The position numbers and the translations under genes are program-made. 64,000 bases of DNA, taken from the NCBI GenBank assembly GCA_024274785.1, contig JAJSAM010000009.1:1-64000 (forward strand), given 5' to 3'. The stretch comes from Planctomycetota bacterium. GTDB lineage: Bacteria > Planctomycetota > JAJSAM01. Below the pieces are notes generated by a model. It did no database searches. It was not told where the DNA came from and was given only the letters and a program-made list of their open reading frames with translations. This document shows, piece by piece, positions 42,513 through 62,621 of this stretch (position 1 is the first letter of the stretch; every line of letters starts with the position of its first letter).

Positions 42513-43910
42513 ATGCGCACCATCGTGTTTCTGAGCATTGCCGCGATCATCGGCGCGGTCTTCGGTTTTCTCGCGTCGGCTCCGATGCCCACCAATGCGG
42601 GGGAGGCTCCGGTCAAGGAGCCGATCCACCGGCCGGCCGCGATGGATGGCGAGGAGGCGCCGGGGGCGATTGCGGAGGAGCGTCCTGACATCGGCTTTGC
42701 CGGTCGGGTCCTGCACCCTAAGTTCGTCCAGCCCTACTACAACTTCGCGCGCCCCAGTTCAATTCCGCTCGACCGCTCCTTCTCCGATTTCGTGGATCCG
42801 ATCGGTCGCAGCGACGCCTCGTTCGAAAACGACGAAGAGGTACGGATCGGCTTCATCGGCTGCCTCTCCGGCCCTTTCAAGTTCTATTCCGGCGAGATGC
42901 TGAACGGGGCCATGATGGCGGTCGAGGAGATCAACGCGGCCGGCGGCTACCACGGCAAGCCGGTGCGCCTGATCCAGCGCGACGACCGGGCGCGGATGGG
43001 TGAAGACGCCAACCAGATGGTGAAACTCTGTTACGAGGATCGGGTGCTCGGCGTGCTTGGCTCCATGTCCTCGGACACGACGCACGTGGCCCTTCGCGTG
43101 GCCTTGAAAGCCGAAGTTCCGCAGATCACCTGCATCTCCACCGACCCGACCATCACCCAGATCGTCGTTCCCTGGATCTTCCGCAGTCTGGCCGACGACT
43201 GGTCCCAGAGCCGGGCGCTCGCCAAGTACGTTTTCCAGCAGCGTGGTTTCAGGAAAGTGGCGCTGCTCGAGCACAACAACCGCTATGGCCGGATGGGCAG
43301 CGCGGAGTTGAAGCGTGTCGCGAAGCGGATGGGCGTCCCGATCAAGGTGGCGATGAAGTATCCGTCATCCCAGAAGGACTTCGCGAAGTACATCCAGGTG
43401 ATCAAGGACTACGGCGCCGATGCCATCGTCAACTGGGGTCTCTATCCCCATGGCGCCCGGATCGTCAGGCAAATGAAGGAGGCCGGGCTCGACATCCCCT
43501 TCTTCGGGGCGGACGGACTCGTGGCGCAGGCTTTCATCGACCAGGCCGGGGAAGCGGCCGAGGGCGTGGTGGTGACCTACCCCTACGATTTCTACCGTGA
43601 CGATCCGCTCACGCAGTCGTTCAACAAGCGCTTTCTCGAGAAGTACGGCCACTCACCGGACTCGTTCGCGGCGCATGGCTACGACACCATGTACGTGATG
43701 TGGCGGGCGGTCAAGGAGGGGGGGCTCAACCGGACCCGCATCCGGGACGCTCTTGCGAGGACGAAGGACTTTCACGGCGTCACGGGTATGATCTCTTTCG
43801 ACCATCGCGGTAACGACATGCGCGGCGTTGATTTCGCCGTCGTGCACAAGGGACAGTTCCTGCCGCTCCGCATGGCTGGGGAATTCGTCCGCAAGGGGGC
43901 GCATGAATAG
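42513..43910 (+). CDS. Branched-chain-amino-acid-type ABC substrate-binding protein (orphan)
   Basis: A 465-residue periplasmic binding protein of the Peripla_BP_6/LivK class. An N-terminal membrane segment (residues 3-24) is followed by a Pro/Glu-rich spacer of about 80 residues before the binding fold starts at VRIGFIGCLSGPF. Further family stretches are EEINAAGGYHGKPVRLI, VLGVLGSMSSDTTHVAL, FGADGLVAQAFI and AHGYDTMYVMW. No permease or ATPase gene is nearby, so it may be a sensor or carrier rather than part of an importer. Its last codons overlap the rhodanese start. Confidence 0.85.
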   Translation: MRTIVFLSIAAIIGAVFGFLASAPMPTNAGEAPVKEPIHRPAAMDGEEAPGAIAEERPDIGFAGRVLHPKFVQPYYNFARPSSIPLDRSFSDFVDPIGRSDASFENDEEVRIGFIGCLSGPFKFYSGEMLNGAMMAVEEINAAGGYHGKPVRLIQRDDRARMGEDANQMVKLCYEDRVLGVLGSMSSDTTHVALRVALKAEVPQITCISTDPTITQIVVPWIFRSLADDWSQSRALAKYVFQQRGFRKVALLEHNNRYGRMGSAELKRVAKRMGVPIKVAMKYPSSQKDFAKYIQVIKDYGADAIVNWGLYPHGARIVRQMKEAGLDIPFFGADGLVAQAFIDQAGEAAEGVVVTYPYDFYRDDPLTQSFNKRFLEKYGHSPDSFAAHGYDTMYVMWRAVKEGGLNRTRIRDALARTKDFHGVTGMISFDHRGNDMRGVDFAVVHKGQFLPLRMAGEFVRKGAHE

Positions 43911-44754
43911 AGTTTCGATCTGGAGAGGGATCGCCGCGGGTCTCGCCGGCTTGCTGTGGGTGGTGACGATGGCCGCCTGCGGAAATGGGGGAGGTGAGTC
44001 CGCGGCACCGACGAAGAAGGTCGTCGATCTCGACATCAAGGCGTTCGCCGCGGAGGTTCGCAGGGATCTCGCGGAGGACGGCCGCCTGGATTCCTTCCTG
44101 ATTTTCGATGCGCGTCAGCCGAGGGAATATGAGATCCGCAGGATTCCCGGAGCGATCTCCCTGCCCTATGGTGGCGCTCCGCTGAACCCCGGGAAGCAGT
44201 TCTTCACCAATCCCGCGACCGGGAAGACCGGAATCGATGCGATGACCCTTCCGGACGGCTCCGCCATTCCGAAGGGCCGCCGGATGGTTTTCTATTCCGG
44301 GCGCAGCGGGTGAGCATCTTCCGGAGCGGCCTGGGCGGCCGCTACGCACGGCTTTACCAACGTTCAGAAACTCGTGGACGGGATGGATGCCTGGACCTGG
44401 CTCGGATTCGCCACCGGGGTATCCACCGCGGCCGAACTTGCGCGCAAGGCGGAGGCGGGGGCCGTACCACTGGACCTGCGATCCCCCGAAGCATTCGCCG
44501 CCGGGCACATCCCGGGCGCGGTGAACGTGACCGCGAAGGAGGTGCTGGCCGACCCCGCGGCCGTTCAGGCCCGGGTTCGCAAGGAGGTTCCGGAGGCCAG
44601 GGCGGTTACGCTCTACCTCGCCGGTGGCCGGGAGGCGGACCTTTACCGCGCCGCGTTCGCGCTCGAGGGCGAGGTTCGCCTGGCGATCTTCCTCTTCCCA
44701 GCGGGATTCTCGGCCTGGAAGGCCGAAGGAAGGCCGGTTTACTCCACGGAGTGA
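43903..44754 (+). CDS. Tandem rhodanese lipoprotein, predicted selenoprotein (in-frame TGA 44311-44313 = Sec137)
   Basis: Sulfurtransferase-type lipoprotein of 283 residues if TGA is read as selenocysteine. The signal ends MAAC (Cys26). Rhodanese domain 1 runs about residues 50-165: DARQPREYEIRRIPGAISLP, then VFYSGRSG-U-ASSGAAW and GFTNVQKLVDGMDAW. In the family with FYC(5)CxxS loops the second Cys is catalytic; here exactly that position is TGA, with Ser at the first Cys. Domain 2 (about 175-283) has LYLAGG where YC is expected and should be inactive. Both sides of the TGA are in the same frame, and a SECIS-like hairpin follows. Alternatives are a nonsense mutation or a sequencing error. Confidence 0.75.
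44325..44343 (+). promoter_or_regulatory. Bacterial SECIS-like stem-loop after the rhodanese TGA
   Basis: AGCGGCC (44325-44331) pairs perfectly with GGCCGCT (44337-44343) around the five-base loop TGGGC. The loop begins 18 nt after the TGA and has G at its second position. This agrees with the bacterial SECIS rules known from formate dehydrogenase and other selenoprotein mRNAs: small apical loop with an early G, 16-37 nt from the UGA. It would bind SelB. Confidence 0.65.
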
Positions 44755-48746: not shown

Positions 48747-50037
48747 ACCTGGCTTCAAGCTGACACTGAAGGGCCGGCTGCTCCGGGCGCTCATCGGCCG
48801 GAAATGTCTGAGTCCGGAACGGATGGCCGCCTACGCGGTGAAGCAGACGGCGTTCTATGCGAAGCACTACGAAGGGTGTGACCTCGCGCAATTCGAGAGT
48901 CTGCCACTGCTCACCAAGAAGATCGTCCGTGACCAGTCCCCGTACGATCTCCTCTCTCGCGCCCTGGCCGACAAGGTCGTCTACTACGGTGAGACCACCG
49001 GCTCCACCGGCAGCCCGACGCCGAGCTTTTTCACCGCGAAGGAGTTCCACGCCTCGACACTGCTCACCTACATGAGTCCGTACTTTCCCTACCTGATGGA
49101 GGCGAAGCGGGAGAACCGGACGGCTTTGAACGGGCTGGCCTTCGGATTCACCGTGGCAGGGATGTCTTTCGGAGATCTCCTGGTGAACGTGGGCTTTCTG
49201 GTGGCGAACACCGGCAGCCGTTCCACCCTGGCGACGCCGCCCCGCATTGCCCGGGGACTCGCCCGGCTCATGCCGTCGGTGGTGACCGCGGCGCCGATCG
49301 ATTTCCTCTGCTGGATGCGGATCGTCGAAGAGGACTACCCGGACGAGGCGCCCGCGGTGAAAGCGAAGCTTCGGGCGCTGATGTCCACGGCCGAACTCTG
49401 TGCCGAGGAGCGCGCCGCGCGGATCGCCGAGCACTTCGATATCCAGTCCGTCGATATCTACGCCTGCGTGGAGGGGTTCTTCACCCTGCCCTGCCCCTGC
49501 GGTGAGAAGCACATTCTTCCCGCCTATCACGTGGAACTCTTCGACGAGGAATTGAACCGCATCGGCGAGACGGGAACCGGACGATTCGCCTTCACCAACC
49601 TGCTGAAGCGATCTTCGCCGATGGTGCGCTATCTGCTCGACGACCTGGTGACGATCCGGCCGGCCGACTGCCCGGCGGGGTTCAAGTGGACGATCGTGCC
49701 GCACGGCCGATGGGAACTGACGGTGCGGATCGGCGGCGAGAACGTCAACGTCCGGCACTTCGAAAACGAGATCTTCCGCCACGGCCTGTTCGGCGACTTC
49801 AAAGTGGTGGTTCGCGACGATCGACTCGACGTCACGCTCGAGGACTACGCCGCGCCCGCGGGTGTCGCGGATCTCGTGGCGAAGGGGCTCTCGGACCGGT
49901 TCGGACTTCCGGTAACCGTGGACCTCGTGCCCTTCGGCACCCTGACCGACTATCGTGCGCCGCGAAAGAGCAAGCCGATCCTGAAGATCGAGGATGCCCG
50001 GGCCGAGTCGACGCAGGAGGTTCCCAAGCTCCTCTGA
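48736..50037 (+). CDS. Phenylacetate-CoA ligase-like (PaaK family) adenylate-forming protein
   Basis: A 433-residue member of the PaaK branch of AMP-binding enzymes. The start is TTG 48736, with AGGAGG six nt upstream inside the end of the polyferredoxin gene. The AMP/phosphate loop is YYGETTGSTGSPTPSFF. An early helix LPLLTKKIVRDQ and a central zinc-type CPCG motif, plus the DDLVTIRP hinge, are typical. It should activate a carboxylic acid as its adenylate and possibly CoA thioester; the acid is not deducible. The setting next to aroC invites an aromatic substrate, which is only inference. Confidence 0.82.
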   Translation: MPAEPGFKLTLKGRLLRALIGRKCLSPERMAAYAVKQTAFYAKHYEGCDLAQFESLPLLTKKIVRDQSPYDLLSRALADKVVYYGETTGSTGSPTPSFFTAKEFHASTLLTYMSPYFPYLMEAKRENRTALNGLAFGFTVAGMSFGDLLVNVGFLVANTGSRSTLATPPRIARGLARLMPSVVTAAPIDFLCWMRIVEEDYPDEAPAVKAKLRALMSTAELCAEERAARIAEHFDIQSVDIYACVEGFFTLPCPCGEKHILPAYHVELFDEELNRIGETGTGRFAFTNLLKRSSPMVRYLLDDLVTIRPADCPAGFKWTIVPHGRWELTVRIGGENVNVRHFENEIFRHGLFGDFKVVVRDDRLDVTLEDYAAPAGVADLVAKGLSDRFGLPVTVDLVPFGTLTDYRAPRKSKPILKIEDARAESTQEVPKLL

Positions 50038-50057
50038 TTCCGGGTAAAAGGGGGGCC

Positions 50058-53000
50058 ATGAGAACCACCAGTCGCTTTCTTCTTCTTCTTCTTCTTCTTC
50101 TTCTTCCGGTTTTCTCCTCCTGCGGCAACGGTGGCGCCGACGGCAACGGCGAGCCCCCCGCAGGCGAAGCGCTCCTGGCCATGAACCGCGGTTTGGCCCA
50201 ACTCGAGGCTTTCGAGTATCTCCCGGCCACGGTCGAGTTCGAAAAGGCGATGAAGGCCGAGCCGGGGTGGACCGCCGCGAAGATCAACCTGGCCATCGCG
50301 CTCATGAACGTGCAGGGAAAGGACGAGCACACCCGCGCGACGAAGCTGATGAAGCAGGTTCTCGTGCGGGATCCGAAGAACCCGTACGCGAACTTCCTGA
50401 TCGGGTTCATGGCGCGGATCGACAGTCGGGCCGAGGAGGCGATTCCTTATTTCGATCGCGTGCTCGAGGTCGATCCGGACGACGTCGGTGCCCTGTTCTG
50501 GAAGGGCATGTGCCTTGGCGATCTCGGGAAACACGAGGCGGCGAACGCGGAGTTCAGCGCGGCGATCAAGGCCGACCCCTATCTCGCCGCGGCCTACCAC
50601 GCCCGTCACAGCCGATTGATGCTGCTCGGCCGCCGTGAGGAAGCGAAGCAGTCCCGGGCGACGTCGGACCGTCTCCGGGCGCCGCGCGGGAAGGCGTTCC
50701 CGATCCAGGGGACGCTCATCACCGCGATGGCCTATCACGAGATTGGCCGGTATGCGATGGCGATCCGGGACTACGCGGTGGAAGCTCCGGCGGAATCGCC
50801 GGAGCCGGCGGTCTTCTCGCTCCACCGGGATCCGGCACTCGACGCCTACCGTTACGGCGGCGACTCCGGGCCGGAGTTCGTTCCGATCGACTTCGATGAT
50901 GCTCTTTCGCCGGAGGAGGCCGTGCTGCTCGCCGTCAGCCGGATCGGCCCCGGCGTGGCGGTGGGGGATATCGACGGTGACGGAGACCCCGACGTGTTCC
51001 TTCCGGAGTGGAATGGTCCCGGCCGGATCTTCGTCAACCAGGGCGGGCTCGTGTTCACGGCGAGGAGCGCGGAGATCGGTCTTGATCGAACCGTAAACGG
51101 CGTCTCCGGGGTGTTTTTCGACGCGGATGGCGATGGGGATCAGGATCTCTATGTCTGTTGCGCCGGCACGAATGTCTTCTACCGGAATCTCGGGGACGGC
51201 ACCTTTTTGGACCAGACGGAGGCCAGCGGCCTCGGTGGGCCCGCGGACGTCGTCAGCGTCTCCGCCACCCCCGGGGACTTCGACCACGAGGGCGACCTCG
51301 ACCTCTTCGTGGCGAACTATTGCAGACTGGACGATCGAGACCTCGGCGGCGCACCGGATGCGTTGTTCCAGAACAATCGGGACGGCACCTTCAAGGAGAT
51401 CGCCGCGGAGTACGGTATCGATGGTGGAGCGGAGCGTTCGATCGGAATGCTGGCTATCGACATCGAGAAGGACCAGGATACCGACCTGCTCGTGATTCGC
51501 GACCGCGGGCCGGCGGCGCTCTGGCTGAACGAACGGATCTGGAAGTTCCGGGCCGGAGAGCTGCCTCCCGAACTGTCCGGTACCGACCCCGCCTGGGGCG
51601 CGGCGGCGGGCGACCTCGACCGCGACGGATTCGAAGAGGTGCTGGTCCTGCGGGGCCCGGGTGCGGAGCCGACTCTGTTCACCACGGACCGGAAGGGGCG
51701 CATGGCCCGGGTACCGGATGGGTTCGCCGCTTGCCGCTGGCGTACCGCCGCCTTTCTCGACCTGGATCTCGACGGCCGGCTCGATCTCGTCGGTCCGGAC
51801 GTGGTCCTGCTTTCCGGGTACGACGTTCCGGTGAACACCGGGGAGGCCGCCGAGGACTCCAACCGGCGTGGCGTGGGGTTTGCCGATTTCGACGGAGACG
51901 GTGACCTGGATCGGCTCCTGGCCGGACCGGACGGAGTGGAACTCTTCGTCACCGAGGCGCCGAAGGAAAACCACTGGCTCGCGCTGGCGCTCGAGGGGCG
52001 GGAGGCGTTGCAGCCCGCGGCCTGGTCTGCGCGGACCGGCCCCGGCCAGGAACTGGAGATCCGCGCGGGGCGACTCTGGCAGCCCCTGCGGACCCGGGCG
52101 ACCACCGGGTTCATCTCCACCATCGAAGGTGTGGCGCGCTTCGGGCTGGGCCCGCACCCCATGGCCGACCTGGTGCGGATCGTCTGGCCGGACCGCGTGC
52201 TGCAGGTGGAGGCGGAGATCCCCGCCGACCAGGTGAAGCGCGTGGTGGAACTGAACCGCAAGCCGGCCTCCTGCCCGATGCTCTTCGCCTTCGACGGGAA
52301 GCGCTACCGATTCGTCTCCGACTTCCTCGGAGTGGGCGGTCTCGGCTTCTTCCTCGGTCCGGGACTCTACGGCGAGTCCGACCCCGACGAGTTCGTGCGG
52401 ATCGGGAAATGGGTGCAGCCGATCGACGGTGAGATCGTGCTGCAGGTGATGGAGCCGCTCGAGGAGATCTCCTACGTGGATGAGACGACGCTGCTCGTGG
52501 TGGATCACCCCGCCGGGATGGATGTCTATCCGAACGAGCGCTACGTGGGGGAGAAAGCCCTGTTTCCCGAGGCCCGGATTTACGGAGTGGCCGAGAAGGT
52601 CTTTCCCCGGGCGGCGACGGACCTGTCCGGTGAGAGCGTGCTCGATACGATCCTCGAGGTCGATCGTACCTATGCTCCGCTGACGCCCGACCTCCGGTTT
52701 CCGGGCGTGGCGAAAGAACACGCGCTGACCCTGGACTTCACCGGCCGGGTGCCGGAGTACGGCAGCGGCGATCGGCTGGTGTTGTTTCTGAACGGCTGGA
52801 TCGAGTATGGCTACTCCAACACGTTCTTCGCCGCCTGGCAGGCCGGGGTGGAGTGCGTGGCCCCGGTGCTCGAAGTGCCGGACGGGAAAGGCGGCTTCGA
52901 GGTGGTCATCCGCAACATGGGTTGCCCGGCGGGGCTGCCGAAGGGTATGACCGTGGATGTCACCGGGATCGTCACGAACGAGTCGCCGATCATCCGCATT

Positions 53001-53528
53001 CGCACGAACCTCGAGGTCTACTGGGACCAGGCGTTCCTCGGTGTCGACCGGGCCGGGGGCAACATCCGGATCACGAAGGTCTCGCCGAAGTCGGCGCACC
53101 TGCACGACCGGGGCTACCCCCGAGAGTATTCTCCGGACGGTCGCCAGCCCCTACTCTACGACTACGGCATCATGGACCCCGGTTACACCTTCAAGTACTT
53201 CACCGGGGAGTACACGAAGTTCGGCAACGTGACGCCTCTGGTGCTCACCGCGGACGACGAGTACGTGATCATGGCCCACGGGGAGGAACTGACCCTGCGG
53301 TTCGACACGGCGGAATTCCCGGCGCTGCCGGCGGGCCATGCCCGGACCTACATCCTCTACGCCGCGGGCTGGTGCAAGGACATGGATCCGTACACCGCCT
53401 TTCCGGACACGGTGGGACCGCTGCCGTTCCGCGGCATGTCGGGCTACCCTTACGGAGACGGTGAGCAGTACCCGGGAGGGACGAAGTGGCGGGAGAAATG
53501 GAATACGCGGAAGATAGAATCTCGGTGA
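50058..53528 (+). CDS. Large TPR-FG-GAP-ASPIC lipoprotein
   Basis: An 1156-residue lipoprotein. The ATG at 50058 opens a signal with nine consecutive Leu codons and a lipobox FSSC (Cys22). About six TPR-like helical pairs (residues 35-220) precede FG-GAP blades (DIDGDGDPDVFL, DADGDGDQDLYV, DFDGDGDLDRLL) to about residue 640. An ASPIC/UnbV-like domain follows (QELEIRAG, DLVRIVWPDRVLQVE). The C-terminal 400 residues form an uncharacterised beta-rich domain with Tyr/Trp-rich ends. It is probably an outer-membrane or surface assembly protein; no enzymatic motif is seen. Confidence 0.83.
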   Translation: MRTTSRFLLLLLLLLLPVFSSCGNGGADGNGEPPAGEALLAMNRGLAQLEAFEYLPATVEFEKAMKAEPGWTAAKINLAIALMNVQGKDEHTRATKLMKQVLVRDPKNPYANFLIGFMARIDSRAEEAIPYFDRVLEVDPDDVGALFWKGMCLGDLGKHEAANAEFSAAIKADPYLAAAYHARHSRLMLLGRREEAKQSRATSDRLRAPRGKAFPIQGTLITAMAYHEIGRYAMAIRDYAVEAPAESPEPAVFSLHRDPALDAYRYGGDSGPEFVPIDFDDALSPEEAVLLAVSRIGPGVAVGDIDGDGDPDVFLPEWNGPGRIFVNQGGLVFTARSAEIGLDRTVNGVSGVFFDADGDGDQDLYVCCAGTNVFYRNLGDGTFLDQTEASGLGGPADVVSVSATPGDFDHEGDLDLFVANYCRLDDRDLGGAPDALFQNNRDGTFKEIAAEYGIDGGAERSIGMLAIDIEKDQDTDLLVIRDRGPAALWLNERIWKFRAGELPPELSGTDPAWGAAAGDLDRDGFEEVLVLRGPGAEPTLFTTDRKGRMARVPDGFAACRWRTAAFLDLDLDGRLDLVGPDVVLLSGYDVPVNTGEAAEDSNRRGVGFADFDGDGDLDRLLAGPDGVELFVTEAPKENHWLALALEGREALQPAAWSARTGPGQELEIRAGRLWQPLRTRATTGFISTIEGVARFGLGPHPMADLVRIVWPDRVLQVEAEIPADQVKRVVELNRKPASCPMLFAFDGKRYRFVSDFLGVGGLGFFLGPGLYGESDPDEFVRIGKWVQPIDGEIVLQVMEPLEEISYVDETTLLVVDHPAGMDVYPNERYVGEKALFPEARIYGVAEKVFPRAATDLSGESVLDTILEVDRTYAPLTPDLRFPGVAKEHALTLDFTGRVPEYGSGDRLVLFLNGWIEYGYSNTFFAAWQAGVECVAPVLEVPDGKGGFEVVIRNMGCPAGLPKGMTVDVTGIVTNESPIIRIRTNLEVYWDQAFLGVDRAGGNIRITKVSPKSAHLHDRGYPREYSPDGRQPLLYDYGIMDPGYTFKYFTGEYTKFGNVTPLVLTADDEYVIMAHGEELTLRFDTAEFPALPAGHARTYILYAAGWCKDMDPYTAFPDTVGPLPFRGMSGYPYGDGEQYPGGTKWREKWNTRKIESR
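50077..50106 (+). repeat. (TTC)10 microsatellite in the signal peptide
   Basis: Ten perfect TTC units encode the run of nine Leu residues (all as the otherwise scarce CTT codon) in the hydrophobic core of the lipoprotein signal. Slippage would change signal length by whole residues without a frameshift. Confidence 0.9.
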
Positions 53529-58414: not shown

Positions 58415-58444
58415 CCGGGCGGACCGCGGCGGGAGGATCGAGAA

Positions 58445-59689
58445 GTGATCAGACAGTCCCTGCTCATCCCGCTCACCCTGGCTGTTCTTACTCCGATCGC
58501 CCATGCCGGCATCGAATGGAAGCACGACATCCGCCAGGCATTCGACGAGGCCGAAGGACGGGGCGTTCCACTTCTCGTCTACCTCTCCCGGGACGACTGA
58601 GGCGTTGCGGAAGCCGTGGAGGGCGGAGCCTTCCAGAACAAGTCACTGGCCCGGGTGAGCCGGAATGACGCGATCTTCGTGTTCCTTCACCAGACCCGTG
58701 AAGACTCGGTGAAGAGCTACAAGCTGATCACCGAGGAGTACCTCGAGGAGAACTTCCAGCATCCCGCCTACCTGTACTTTCGACCCGATGGAACAGAATT
58801 CGACCAGTCGGAGCGGATGCACCACACGGCGCTTCCCGCACAGCGCATCGCCAGAGTGTTGAGGCGGATTTCGAAAGAGTGGGGGAAGCACCTCCCGGTT
58901 CTCGAGTACGAAAAGGCGCTCCGTGAAATCAAGGCCGCCGAAGACCTCCTTCGGACCGGGAACTGGGAGGAGGCTTCGGGATTGCTCGAGCGTGCGGCAG
59001 GGCTGCGGGCCCGCTGCGGGGTGAGGGATCGCGCGACGGCCATCCTCGGAACCATCGAAGCCCGGAAGCGGATGCTGGCCGAATGGCGGAGCATCGAAGA
59101 CGCTCCGCGGGCGCTGGCCGGGAGTGTGGAGCAGTCGCTCCTCGAGGGTAACCCCGTGCGCGTCCTTCAGATTCTTCGGAAGGATCCTGTCGACGACGAG
59201 AAGATCGCAGCTTTTGAACTCGGTCTGATCGCGTATCTTCGGGAAGTGATTCGCCTGGAACCTTTGCGCTTCGAAAAGGTGTACCTTTCGACCGGTACCC
59301 TCTATCAACTGAAGGCCTGTTGGGCTACCGACCTGCCGGAGTTCGACGGTCTGGGGGTGCAGATCTCCTATCGCACCGATCGGGACCAGACCCTTGAGGG
59401 CTATGGGATTTACGAGAACATGCGGCCCTACTCCCACCACCGTGCCGCGGTGTCGCTGACCGCGCGTGGGTTGCACTATGCGGAGGTGGTGAACGCCCGG
59501 GTCCAGTTGTGGGTCGCCGACGTAATGCTTGACGAAGCGAAACTGCACGATGAGCCCGCCGATTTTCCGCCTGAAGAATCACATGTCCAGGTCGGTCCGG
59601 ATCTCCTCGGTGCGAGCGAGAGCCTCTCCGCGGGCGCGAAAGCCGATGTTCTGCTCTTCAAGGTCGGGAAGTACAAGCCGATCCGGTGA
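58445..59689 (+). CDS. Exported thioredoxin-fold protein, predicted selenoprotein (in-frame TGA 58598-58600 = Sec52)
   Basis: A 414-residue protein if TGA is selenocysteine. GTG 58445 has an excellent GGGAGGA at 7 nt, and the signal peptide ends PIAHA/G, so translation clearly enters the TGA from upstream. The thioredoxin fold is marked by VPLLVYLSRDD-U-GVAEA at the first strand and active-site helix, then IFVFLHQ and the cis-Pro strand HPAYLYFRPDGTEF. The TGA takes the place of the redox Cys, with no second Cys in the U-x-x-A turn. Beyond residue 150 lies a helical region and a beta-rich C-terminal domain of unknown type. The frame is uninterrupted on both sides. Confidence 0.75.
58609..58634 (+). 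promoter_or_regulatory. Bacterial SECIS-like stem-loop after the thioredoxin-fold TGA
   Basis: GGAAGCCG (58609-58616) pairs with CGG (58624-58626) and CTTCC (58630-58634), leaving a three-base AGC bulge on the 3' side. The apical loop TGGAGGG starts 16 nt after the TGA and has G at its second position. This fits the bacterial SECIS geometry and parallels the element at 44325-44343. Confidence 0.6.
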
Positions 59690-59776: not shown

Positions 59777-61765
59777 CTACCGGCTCGAGATCGGCGCCGT
59801 CGCCTTCTTCAGAAACAGGATCGCGAACGCCGTCTGCACCGGCTCATTGTACCCCGGGCGCCAATGGCCGTCTCGACTCTGCTCCTCGATCAGGCGCTTC
59901 GCTCCGGGGACGTACCAGGGCTTTTTGCCCATCAGGCTGCGGCTGCCGAGGACGCCGGCGCGTTCGATGCCGTAGAGGGTGTAGAGCGAGTCCTTGTCGA
60001 TCTTCATCTTCTCGCCGAGCGTGGTGAATCCGCCGTCGATCACCTCGATCAGGTTCGCACGTTCCGGATCGCTCAGGTCCGCGTTTTCGAGACAGATCAG
60101 CAGGCAGGTTACCCCCGCGGCGGTCATGGAAGCTGAACTGGTGGTGCCGGCCGGAGTGGGACGGTAGGACCAGCCGCCGTCCTGGTTTTTCGTGTCGTAG
60201 AAGTGCGTGAGGATCCTCTTCCAGATCCGCCCCGGGATCTTGATTCCGGCCCGGGTGGCGGAGCGCAGACCGAGCACCGCATACTGGGTGTTGCTGTGGT
60301 CCCCGTCACCGGAGGGATAGCCCCAGTAGCCCTCGGCATTCATGCTCTTGACGATCTTTTTCGCGCACTCGGCGATGCGCCGCTTGTAGCGCTTCGGGTT
60401 CACCGTCTCGAGTGCCATCGCCTCGATTCCGAGATCGTAGATCCGCTCGGGCACCGCCTCGTCGAGCAGGTACTTCACGCCGGCCCGGATGGCGCGATCC
60501 TTCTTCGGATTGTGACTGGCGGCGTGCAGCGCGAGCACGGCGAGGGCGGTGGTGCCGATCGGATGTCCGCCGAACTCCCAGGGCCGGTCTTCCCCGCGGA
60601 CAGCCCGCAGCGCGGCGGCGCCTTTCTCGATGGCGAGGTTCACGAGGGTCTGGTTCAGGGCCTCCGGGTCGGGCGGCTTGACGGCGGTGGGATCGAATGC
60701 CTCCCCGTACTTCACCCACCACGCTTCCCACAGGTCCAGCCGGTCACCGAACTGCTGGCCGGTGATGATCTCGAGGGTGACCTGGATCTCCACGCGAAAG
60801 ACTCCGCCGTCCTCCCGGCGCATCAACCCGATCAGCACCGGGATCGCTTCCGGGAGCGGGGATTTGCGGAGGGCTCGCACCGCAGCGACGGCTTCGATCT
60901 CATCGGGGCGCTGCGCGGACTCGACAAGCAGAGTCCGGGCTGCGTCCATGGTGGCGCCGACCGCCCCGAGACTCTCGATCAGCACGGCCCGGAACTCGCT
61001 CCCCTTCGCCGCACCAAGCGCATTCACCAATGCCGGTTGCGCCTCCCTGATTCCGGCGCGGGCGGCGATGATGGCGGCATTCCGAACGATGTCGTCCGGC
61101 GCCTTCATAATGGCCTCCGGCAAGACCGCCCTCACGTCGTCCGCGGCGTCGATGAACACCTTGGGGATCTGGTCCCGGTCGTAGGTTCGGTTGTCGTCGT
61201 AGATGCGGACGAGGATCCGCGCCGCCGGCACGCTCGGGTACTGGGTGAGCGGGCCGACGAGCGACGAAGTGCCGGTCGGGAAGTCATCGAGAAACCGCAG
61301 TGCTTCCGGGATCAGGCGCTGGTCTTTCTTCTTTCCGAAGTACCGGATCAGGTTGCTGCGAAGTCCCTGGTCGAGACTCGATCTCACCTGCTCGATCAGG
61401 CTCTCGGGGAGGTCTTCTTTCCGGTAGCTCACCAGGCCGGAGAAGGCCGACGATCGAAGGTCCGGATCCTCGAAGAACCGGAGCACCGCGCGCCAGGCGA
61501 CCGGGAGGGGGATCTGAGCGACCCGGTAGATGGTGTTGAGTTGCATGCTGCGGTCCGCATCCTGCTCGACCACCTTGATGAGAAAGCGCGCCGCCGCCTC
61601 TGTCTTGAGATCGGCGATCTCCTGGATGGTCTTCTGCCTCGTCTGGTAGGGCGCGCCTTTCTCCCGCTGGAACCGGGCCCGGAGTTTCGAGAGGCTGTCC
61701 GCGGCGGCGGGGGGGGAGAGGAGTGCCAGGATCAGGATGGTGCAGATGCCGATGACAGTTCGCAT
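59777..61765 (-). CDS. Exported HEAT-repeat/alpha-alpha toroid fusion protein
   Basis: A 662-residue protein. ATG 61765 lies 1 nt after the TPR gene's stop. The signal peptide (LILALLSPPAAADS) is followed by HEAT-like helical repeats to about residue 330 (AAIIAARAGIREAQPALVNAL and similar). The prenyltransferase-fold toroid fills the C-terminal 300 residues, with repeats such as NAEGYWGYPSGDGDHSNTQ, TKNQDGGWSYRP and SRDGHWRPGY. The DxDD catalytic motif of squalene cyclases is missing. It is probably a scaffold or binding protein in the periplasm, co-transcribed with the TPR protein. Confidence 0.8.
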   Translation of the reverse strand: MRTVIGICTILILALLSPPAAADSLSKLRARFQREKGAPYQTRQKTIQEIADLKTEAAARFLIKVVEQDADRSMQLNTIYRVAQIPLPVAWRAVLRFFEDPDLRSSAFSGLVSYRKEDLPESLIEQVRSSLDQGLRSNLIRYFGKKKDQRLIPEALRFLDDFPTGTSSLVGPLTQYPSVPAARILVRIYDDNRTYDRDQIPKVFIDAADDVRAVLPEAIMKAPDDIVRNAAIIAARAGIREAQPALVNALGAAKGSEFRAVLIESLGAVGATMDAARTLLVESAQRPDEIEAVAAVRALRKSPLPEAIPVLIGLMRREDGGVFRVEIQVTLEIITGQQFGDRLDLWEAWWVKYGEAFDPTAVKPPDPEALNQTLVNLAIEKGAAALRAVRGEDRPWEFGGHPIGTTALAVLALHAASHNPKKDRAIRAGVKYLLDEAVPERIYDLGIEAMALETVNPKRYKRRIAECAKKIVKSMNAEGYWGYPSGDGDHSNTQYAVLGLRSATRAGIKIPGRIWKRILTHFYDTKNQDGGWSYRPTPAGTTSSASMTAAGVTCLLICLENADLSDPERANLIEVIDGGFTTLGEKMKIDKDSLYTLYGIERAGVLGSRSLMGKKPWYVPGAKRLIEEQSRDGHWRPGYNEPVQTAFAILFLKKATAPISSR

Positions 61766-61766
61766 C

Positions 61767-62621
61767 TCAGTCCCCCATGGACCGGAGTTGTTCCCTGATC
61801 TCCTCGCTGTCCGGGAACATGCGCAGCCCTTCCTCGAGGGCCGCTCTTGATTTTTCCCGGTTGCCTGACTTCCGATACTGGATTCCGAGATTCGTGTAGA
61901 CGCCTTCCAGCATGGGGATGGATGGATCCTGTGCGGCCTGCTTGCGAAGAGTCTCGAATTCAGCGATGGCCGCCGGACCCTTGCCCATGGCCTCCGGCCA
62001 GAAGGTGTAGGAGACGGCCTTGGAGAACCGGGCGCCGAAGTGGTGGTCGTCGATGGCGAGCGCCTTGTTGAATGCCGCATCCGCAAGCATCGAGAGCTGG
62101 CTCTGCTCCGCGAAGCTGATCTGGCCGCTCACCAGCTTGGAGATCGCGCCGATGCCAACTCCGTACTGAGCGTCCGCGTCGTTCGGCCTGGCCTTTGCGT
62201 TCTTCACCAGCGAGGAGAGCGCTTCATCGTACCTGCCCGTGCCGCTGAGGATGTTCCAGAGTTCATTCATCTCCTCACCGACGACGTCACCGGCTTCGAC
62301 CCGCGCCAGGAAGTCCGTCAGCCGCTTTGTCTTCTCAGCGGACGGGGTGGGGGCCACCTCGGGTTCGTTGTCCGGAGCGATCTCGGTCACATCGGCCTGG
62401 AGCTGCGGCGGTGCAAGGTCGCTTTCGAACGGTGAGGGAGGAGCGGCCTTGAGTTCCGAGAGCATCTCCTCGATACGATCCAACCGTGCATCGATGGCCG
62501 ACGTGTCCGCCGGTGCGGCGGGGGCGGTCGGAGACGATCCGAATCCGGCCAGGCGGATCTCCACGTACACGATTGCGATGAGGACCGCGGCGACGACCGC
62601 GATGAGTCCCGATTTCGACAT
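61767..62621 (-). CDS. Membrane-anchored TPR protein
   Basis: A 284-residue protein with an N-terminal membrane anchor (LIAVVAAVLIAIVYVEIRLA), a short coiled coil (IDARLDRIEEMLSELKA), an acidic/Pro-rich linker and three to four TPR-like units from about residue 110 to the end (GTGRYDEALSSLVKNAKARP, NLGIQYRKSGNREKSRAALE). ATG 62621 follows GGAGGAG. It is coupled to the toroid gene. The gap 62622-62950 upstream shows no gene or clear regulatory site. Confidence 0.78.
   Translation of the reverse strand: MSKSGLIAVVAAVLIAIVYVEIRLAGFGSSPTAPAAPADTSAIDARLDRIEEMLSELKAAPPSPFESDLAPPQLQADVTEIAPDNEPEVAPTPSAEKTKRLTDFLARVEAGDVVGEEMNELWNILSGTGRYDEALSSLVKNAKARPNDADAQYGVGIGAISKLVSGQISFAEQSQLSMLADAAFNKALAIDDHHFGARFSKAVSYTFWPEAMGKGPAAIAEFETLRKQAAQDPSIPMLEGVYTNLGIQYRKSGNREKSRAALEEGLRMFPDSEEIREQLRSMGD

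Follow-up and report, generated by a model that had tools for sequence, protein, structure and literature searches.

A predicted exported thioredoxin-fold selenoprotein with a UGVA motif in a Planctomycetota genome

A TGA-interrupted gene and its neighbourhood

We analysed a stretch of 64,000 nucleotides (hereafter the window), which corresponds to bases 1-64000 of contig C75 (142 kb) in a 4.5-Mb genome of 83 contigs. On the forward strand, a frame at 58445-59689 starts with GTG, continues for 51 codons to a TGA at 58598-58600 and is then open to the TGA stop at 59687-59689. The TGA at 58598 is the sole interruption of this frame, and when it is read as selenocysteine (Sec) the product has 414 residues with Sec at position 52. 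Standard gene finders would end the gene early at this codon. A Shine-Dalgarno-like GGGAGG (58431-58436, +) is located 8 nt upstream of the start. By reading of the sequence alone, residues 1-21 (58445-58507, +) form a putative signal peptide with a predicted cleavage between AHA and G, in agreement with the original prediction, which had placed a ribosome site and a signal peptide before position 58510. The product of the gene would thus be exported.

The original prediction had also proposed that a thioredoxin fold continues in frame behind the TGA. Indeed, the readthrough product matches the Thioredoxin_7 profile (Pfam PF13899) over residues 24-114 (58514-58786, +) with 31.3 bits, above the curated cut-off of 27, and the domain was recovered in a whole-genome search. 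The AlphaFold2 model was used for secondary structure only, the confidence in the thioredoxin domain being low. In this model, residue 52 lies at the start of the helix after the first strand (E43-48, H51-59; low confidence at this place), which is the normal active-site position. His106-Pro107 (58760-58765, +), the HP of HPAYLYFRPDG that had been named as a feature of the fold, is invariant in three orthologues and is the candidate cis-proline, with presumed cis geometry. Downstream of the domain, a helical region is followed by a beta-sandwich-like region (residues 269-366; 59249-59542, +; AlphaFold2 secondary structure). A PDB fold search with the predicted structure, including this C-terminal region, returned no solved structure at E <= 0.001, and no PDZ domain was found in the protein by Pfam profile search.

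The redox motif is UGVA, and the TGA provides its first residue. The second redox Cys, three residues past the first, is absent in all three orthologues, which carry UGVA as well. The window protein is therefore not a simple thioredoxin of the CxxC or UxxC type, because Ala takes the place of the partner Cys. Hence, of the thioredoxin-like active site that had been proposed, Sec at the first redox position holds, but the missing partner Cys had been overlooked. Another thiol, Cys191 (59015-59017, +), is invariant in the three orthologues and could be a resolving thiol. No equivalent of Cys191 was seen in L024 and L034, two more distant relatives with UxxA/S motifs.

A second in-frame TGA is located in a neighbouring gene. 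The frame at 43903-44754 (+) encodes a lipoprotein-like double rhodanese, matched by PF00581 in two stretches (E 2.4e-25), and contains a TGA at 44311 in VFYSGRSGUASS. A hairpin with the loop UGGGC, which starts 18 nt after this TGA, has a z-score of -0.95 versus shuffles. The homologue from genome G001 (L108) has a TGA at the aligned place (FYCYGLGUPTSLGAA), and its frame also has a TAG elsewhere. Sec in the neighbouring rhodanese, as had been suspected before, is supported by this shared TGA.

Two further genes in the window were noted. A convergent gene on the reverse strand (59777-62086) with a HEAT_2 match lies downstream of the selenoprotein gene; a similar reverse-strand frame also follows the orthologue L022, which hints at a conserved gene order. 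On the forward strand, a frame of 1280 amino acids (49686-53528) matches FG-GAP, TPR and UnbV_ASPIC; the window encodes several repeat proteins of this type, this one included.

Conservation of the TGA column and the selenocysteine machinery

We searched for homologues of the window protein in genome contigs. No relative was found with a single-protein query, and two were found with an alignment query. These orthologues (L022/L036 and L023/L037) come from two independent planctomycete metagenome-assembled genomes (MAGs), are 43-45% identical and harbour the TGA at the same codon. In the three genomes, the TGA sits in the otherwise invariant motif RDDUGVAxAVEGGxF. The records of the two closest homologues are JAOZQC010000228.1 and JALOQY010000295.1.

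When 392 Planctomycetota genomes were searched with a profile, 84 gave matches. The matched stretches from this search and from the earlier homologue search were extracted with TGA read as Sec. The Planctomycetota genomes yielded 86 non-redundant domain hits of the Thioredoxin_7 type. Their aligned redox column held TGA in 49, TGC or TGT in 21 and another codon in 16, so that 70 of the 86 had either TGA or Cys. The search read through stops and favoured no column; the concentration of TGA at this position was therefore not built in. None of the 5,620 other codons in the Sec stretches was a TGA. At least 11 exchanges between Sec and Cys were counted in a tree of 68 domains, and at least four of these exchanges were forced by well-supported branches. 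This is the pattern that had been anticipated when the TGA was assigned to the first active-site Cys and Cys/Sec exchange at residue 52 was put forward as a check. Moreover, such a distribution, together with the retention of the TGA in both orthologues at protein identities of 43-45%, is far beyond chance and agrees with the earlier argument against random mutation. The gene has the hallmark of a bacterial selenoprotein, namely an in-frame UGA where homologues have Cys or Sec.

For further analyses, 47 of the 49 Sec rows were kept. One row of L096 was dropped as a probable alignment artefact and one of L033 as a duplicate of L024. The motif was UxxC in 38 of these 47 domains; the remaining nine include the clade of the window protein and the G019/G040 clade. 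Two further Thioredoxin_7 proteins with an in-frame TGA at the redox position are encoded in the window's own genome, L127 (G000:C22:108180-108440) with the motif UPPC and L130 (G000:C47:29138-29302) with UPGC. The latter is located about 9 kb from a selD-selB-selA cluster.

The genome also harbours the complete set of genes by which bacterial selenoproteins are recognised, i.e. those for tRNA-Sec, SelA, SelB and SelD, for which a search had been recommended. The tRNA-Sec scored 72.1 bits and was called SeC (tca) by ARAGORN; it lies on a small contig of 8.6 kb in a MAG with an estimated contamination of 4.65%. The selA gene scored 531.6 bits and is adjoined by selB, and selD carries an in-frame TGA of its own. 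There are two SelB factors in this genome, one of them on the contig of the window. This second SelB-type factor (L068:8483-10387; G000:C75, about 71482-73386) is encoded 7.5 kb beyond the end of the window. It is full-length (634 amino acids), scores 342.6 bits to TIGR00475 (cut-off 242) and is 42% identical to the SelB adjacent to SelA. Both copies are also found in G002, and three are present in each of G019 and G040. In the papers searched, nothing matching was found on multiple or second SelB factors. We speculate that the two factors might serve different sets of SECIS elements.

Across genomes, a selA match was found in all 35 with a Sec form, 34 of them above the cut-off. Where only the Cys form was seen (14 genomes), selA was above the cut-off in 10 (Fisher p 0.019 versus the Sec-form genomes). 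As expected, no selA match was found in G153, G290 and G018, three genomes that showed the Cys form only. The tRNA-Sec scores were lower in some of the incomplete genomes in this comparison, for instance 48.3 bits in G002, just above the cut-off.

SECIS-like hairpins downstream of the TGA

To define SECIS-like hairpins, we applied the published bacterial rule (PMC13188914) and set the minimum stem length to 6 bp, a value chosen within the published range. At 58617-58635 (+), the window harbours a hairpin that fits this rule, with an 8-bp stem (58617-58624 paired with 58628-58635), the 5′ arm TGGAGGGC and an apical GGA loop (58625-58627), 24 nt downstream of the TGA. All pairs except the outermost, seven out of eight, had pair probabilities of 0.98-1.0. 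A different hairpin had originally been proposed, with the loop TGGAGGG and starting 16 nt after the TGA; its pairing probability is about 0, and it was discarded.

The local fold at the window's TGA was not unusually stable compared to dinucleotide shuffles (z +0.8). Since the hairpin is not significant by itself, its support comes from the homologues. A hairpin according to the rule was present in 38 of the 47 Sec genes, compared to 9.3 ± 2.6 expected from synonymous-codon trials (maximum 16 in 100 trials), although these counts are not fully independent because the sequences are related. The fairest control is the set of Cys homologues, in which no excess was observed (3 of 21, 2.1 expected). 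The mean z-score of the hairpin energy was -1.23 for Sec and +0.67 for Cys genes (p 1.6e-7). In the Sec genes, the loop mostly starts 22-25 nt past the TGA. No shared RNAalifold structure was found over 25 sequences, probably because the register of the hairpin shifts by a few nucleotides between genes, and the synonymous-codon null was used in its place. SECIS prediction, another check proposed at the outset, thus gave a GGA-loop hairpin that fits the rule and is enriched in the Sec homologues only.

Proposed function and relation to known families

With the conservation of the TGA column, the Sec machinery, the SECIS-like hairpins and the fold family by profile all obtained by computation, an exported thioredoxin-fold selenoprotein is, with very little doubt, the best explanation of the locus. 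Insertion of Sec at codon 52 by UGA recoding is predicted with very high confidence. Sec-tRNA-Sec would be brought to the UGA codon by SelB, which would bind the hairpin located 24 nt downstream, and Sec would thereby stand where the active-site helix begins. Once exported by means of its signal peptide, the protein would most likely act extracytoplasmically, as a mono-selenol oxidoreductase with UxxA rather than CxxC. The electrophile attacked by Sec52 would be a peroxide, a disulfide or a different compound; Cys191 in the same polypeptide, or else a thiol from outside, would afterwards reduce the oxidised selenium. The substrate is most likely a peroxide or a disulfide, either of a protein or of low molecular weight.

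We regard such a mono-selenol role as reasonably probable. Since the partner Cys is missing in UGVA, the simplest chemistry would be a mono-selenol cycle in which a different thiol carries out the resolving step. Cys191 is possibly this thiol, and its absence from the distant UxxA/S relatives makes that step only a proposal. A serious, if less probable, alternative is that Sec is inserted but the protein acts as a disulfide reductase or isomerase of the conventional type, dependent on a separate partner, or serves a structural or metal-binding purpose, without a self-resolving mono-selenol cycle. Most Sec relatives carry UxxC, the nearest named relatives of the Sec forms are DsbD/DsbH-like thioredoxins, and the helical and beta regions might offer binding sites for partners, all of which would fit this alternative. 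The absence of the partner Cys in all three genomes of the window clade argues against it and for the mono-selenol cycle. A bolder proposal, which we consider rather unlikely, is that the UxxA/S clade makes up a separate class of selenoenzymes. Its members would be exported thioredoxin-fold mono-selenols whose oxidised Sec is resolved by a thiol that lies beyond the motif (Cys191 here), within a large uncatalogued radiation of Sec Thioredoxin_7 proteins in Planctomycetota.

Explanations without Sec are very improbable. A frame of 357 amino acids starts at a GTG downstream of the TGA (58616) and would be chosen by an automatic gene finder, with the upstream part non-coding. However, a start at 58616 would leave out the signal peptide and the initial third of the thioredoxin fold, and the 30 codons that precede the TGA are under purifying selection as protein-coding sequence in the frame of the full-length gene (pN/pS 0.18-0.37). 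Comparable short GTG frames in L036 and L037 also start within the conserved VEGG motif. Hence, the chance that the true start lies behind the TGA is very small. It is similarly improbable that the gene is a pseudogene or that an error in sequencing or assembly turned a Cys codon into TGA. TGA is one base away from TGC and TGT and the window comes from a MAG, but the same TGA recurs in independent assemblies, which makes a sequencing error very unlikely, and dozens of diverged homologues share it, without exception at the redox column. A changed genetic code would account for an in-frame TGA within a conserved gene, but is hardly credible in an organism with a full Sec machinery in which TGA terminates both the selenoprotein gene (59687) and the rhodanese gene (44752) and occurs in homologues only at the redox column.

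The gene almost certainly encodes an exported redox selenoprotein, one of a widespread, little-catalogued group in Planctomycetota. Most characterised selenoproteins have a thioredoxin-like fold (PMC13188914), and the window protein is a new subfamily of this well-known kind. It adds a subfamily that is not recognised by profile libraries and would be truncated by gene finders. The data suggest that exported thioredoxin-fold selenoproteins are common in Planctomycetota and often swap Sec for Cys. Such a natural Sec/Cys series, which includes a UxxA variant, offers a setting for testing the need for a resolving thiol. Two selenoproteome reviews that we consulted make no mention of Planctomycetota; selenoproteins have already been reported in Planctomycetes (PMC4807772), and the candidate list of that study may overlap with the subfamily described here. 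A literature search for PF13899 selenoproteins returned nothing matching.

Among the 119 prokaryotic selenoprotein families listed in 2026, there is no UxxA or UxxS Thioredoxin_7 entry; the nearest entries are the Trx7/PDZ protein (CxxU), the VPGUxxT proteins and TsoB (PMC13188914). None of the named selenoprotein models was matched above its cut-off by the window protein. The Trx7/PDZ (seleno)protein NF041199 is likewise of the Thioredoxin_7 type and weakly matches the relatives L027 and L034. However, its Sec motif is CxxU (PMC13188914) instead of UGVA, the window protein has no PDZ domain, and it did not match this model (score of at least 300 and CxxU needed) at E <= 1. The VPGUxxT selenoproteins (NF041382/NF041383) are also thioredoxin-like with Sec and no partner Cys, and weakly match L027. 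They need a VPGU motif and a score of at least 275-350, whereas the window protein has RDDUGVA and no match. TsoB (NF045694), similar to a rhodanese/DsbD fusion, is the sole named selenoprotein family touched by the window protein (E 0.0023, residues 7-120). The match reaches 16.1 bits against a cut-off of 805, and TsoB has two Sec and a rhodanese part that the window gene lacks. The DsbH and DUF255 thioredoxins (NF043050, PF03190) have the thioredoxin-like fold in common and match weakly, PF03190 with 19 bits to the window protein (cut-off 27) and NF043050 only to L027; the window protein is without their CxxC. The PF13899 proteins share the domain above the cut-off, and many homologues have Cys at the redox column. 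Compared to these, the window protein has Sec in place of the first Cys, Ala in place of the second, and additional helical and beta regions behind the domain.
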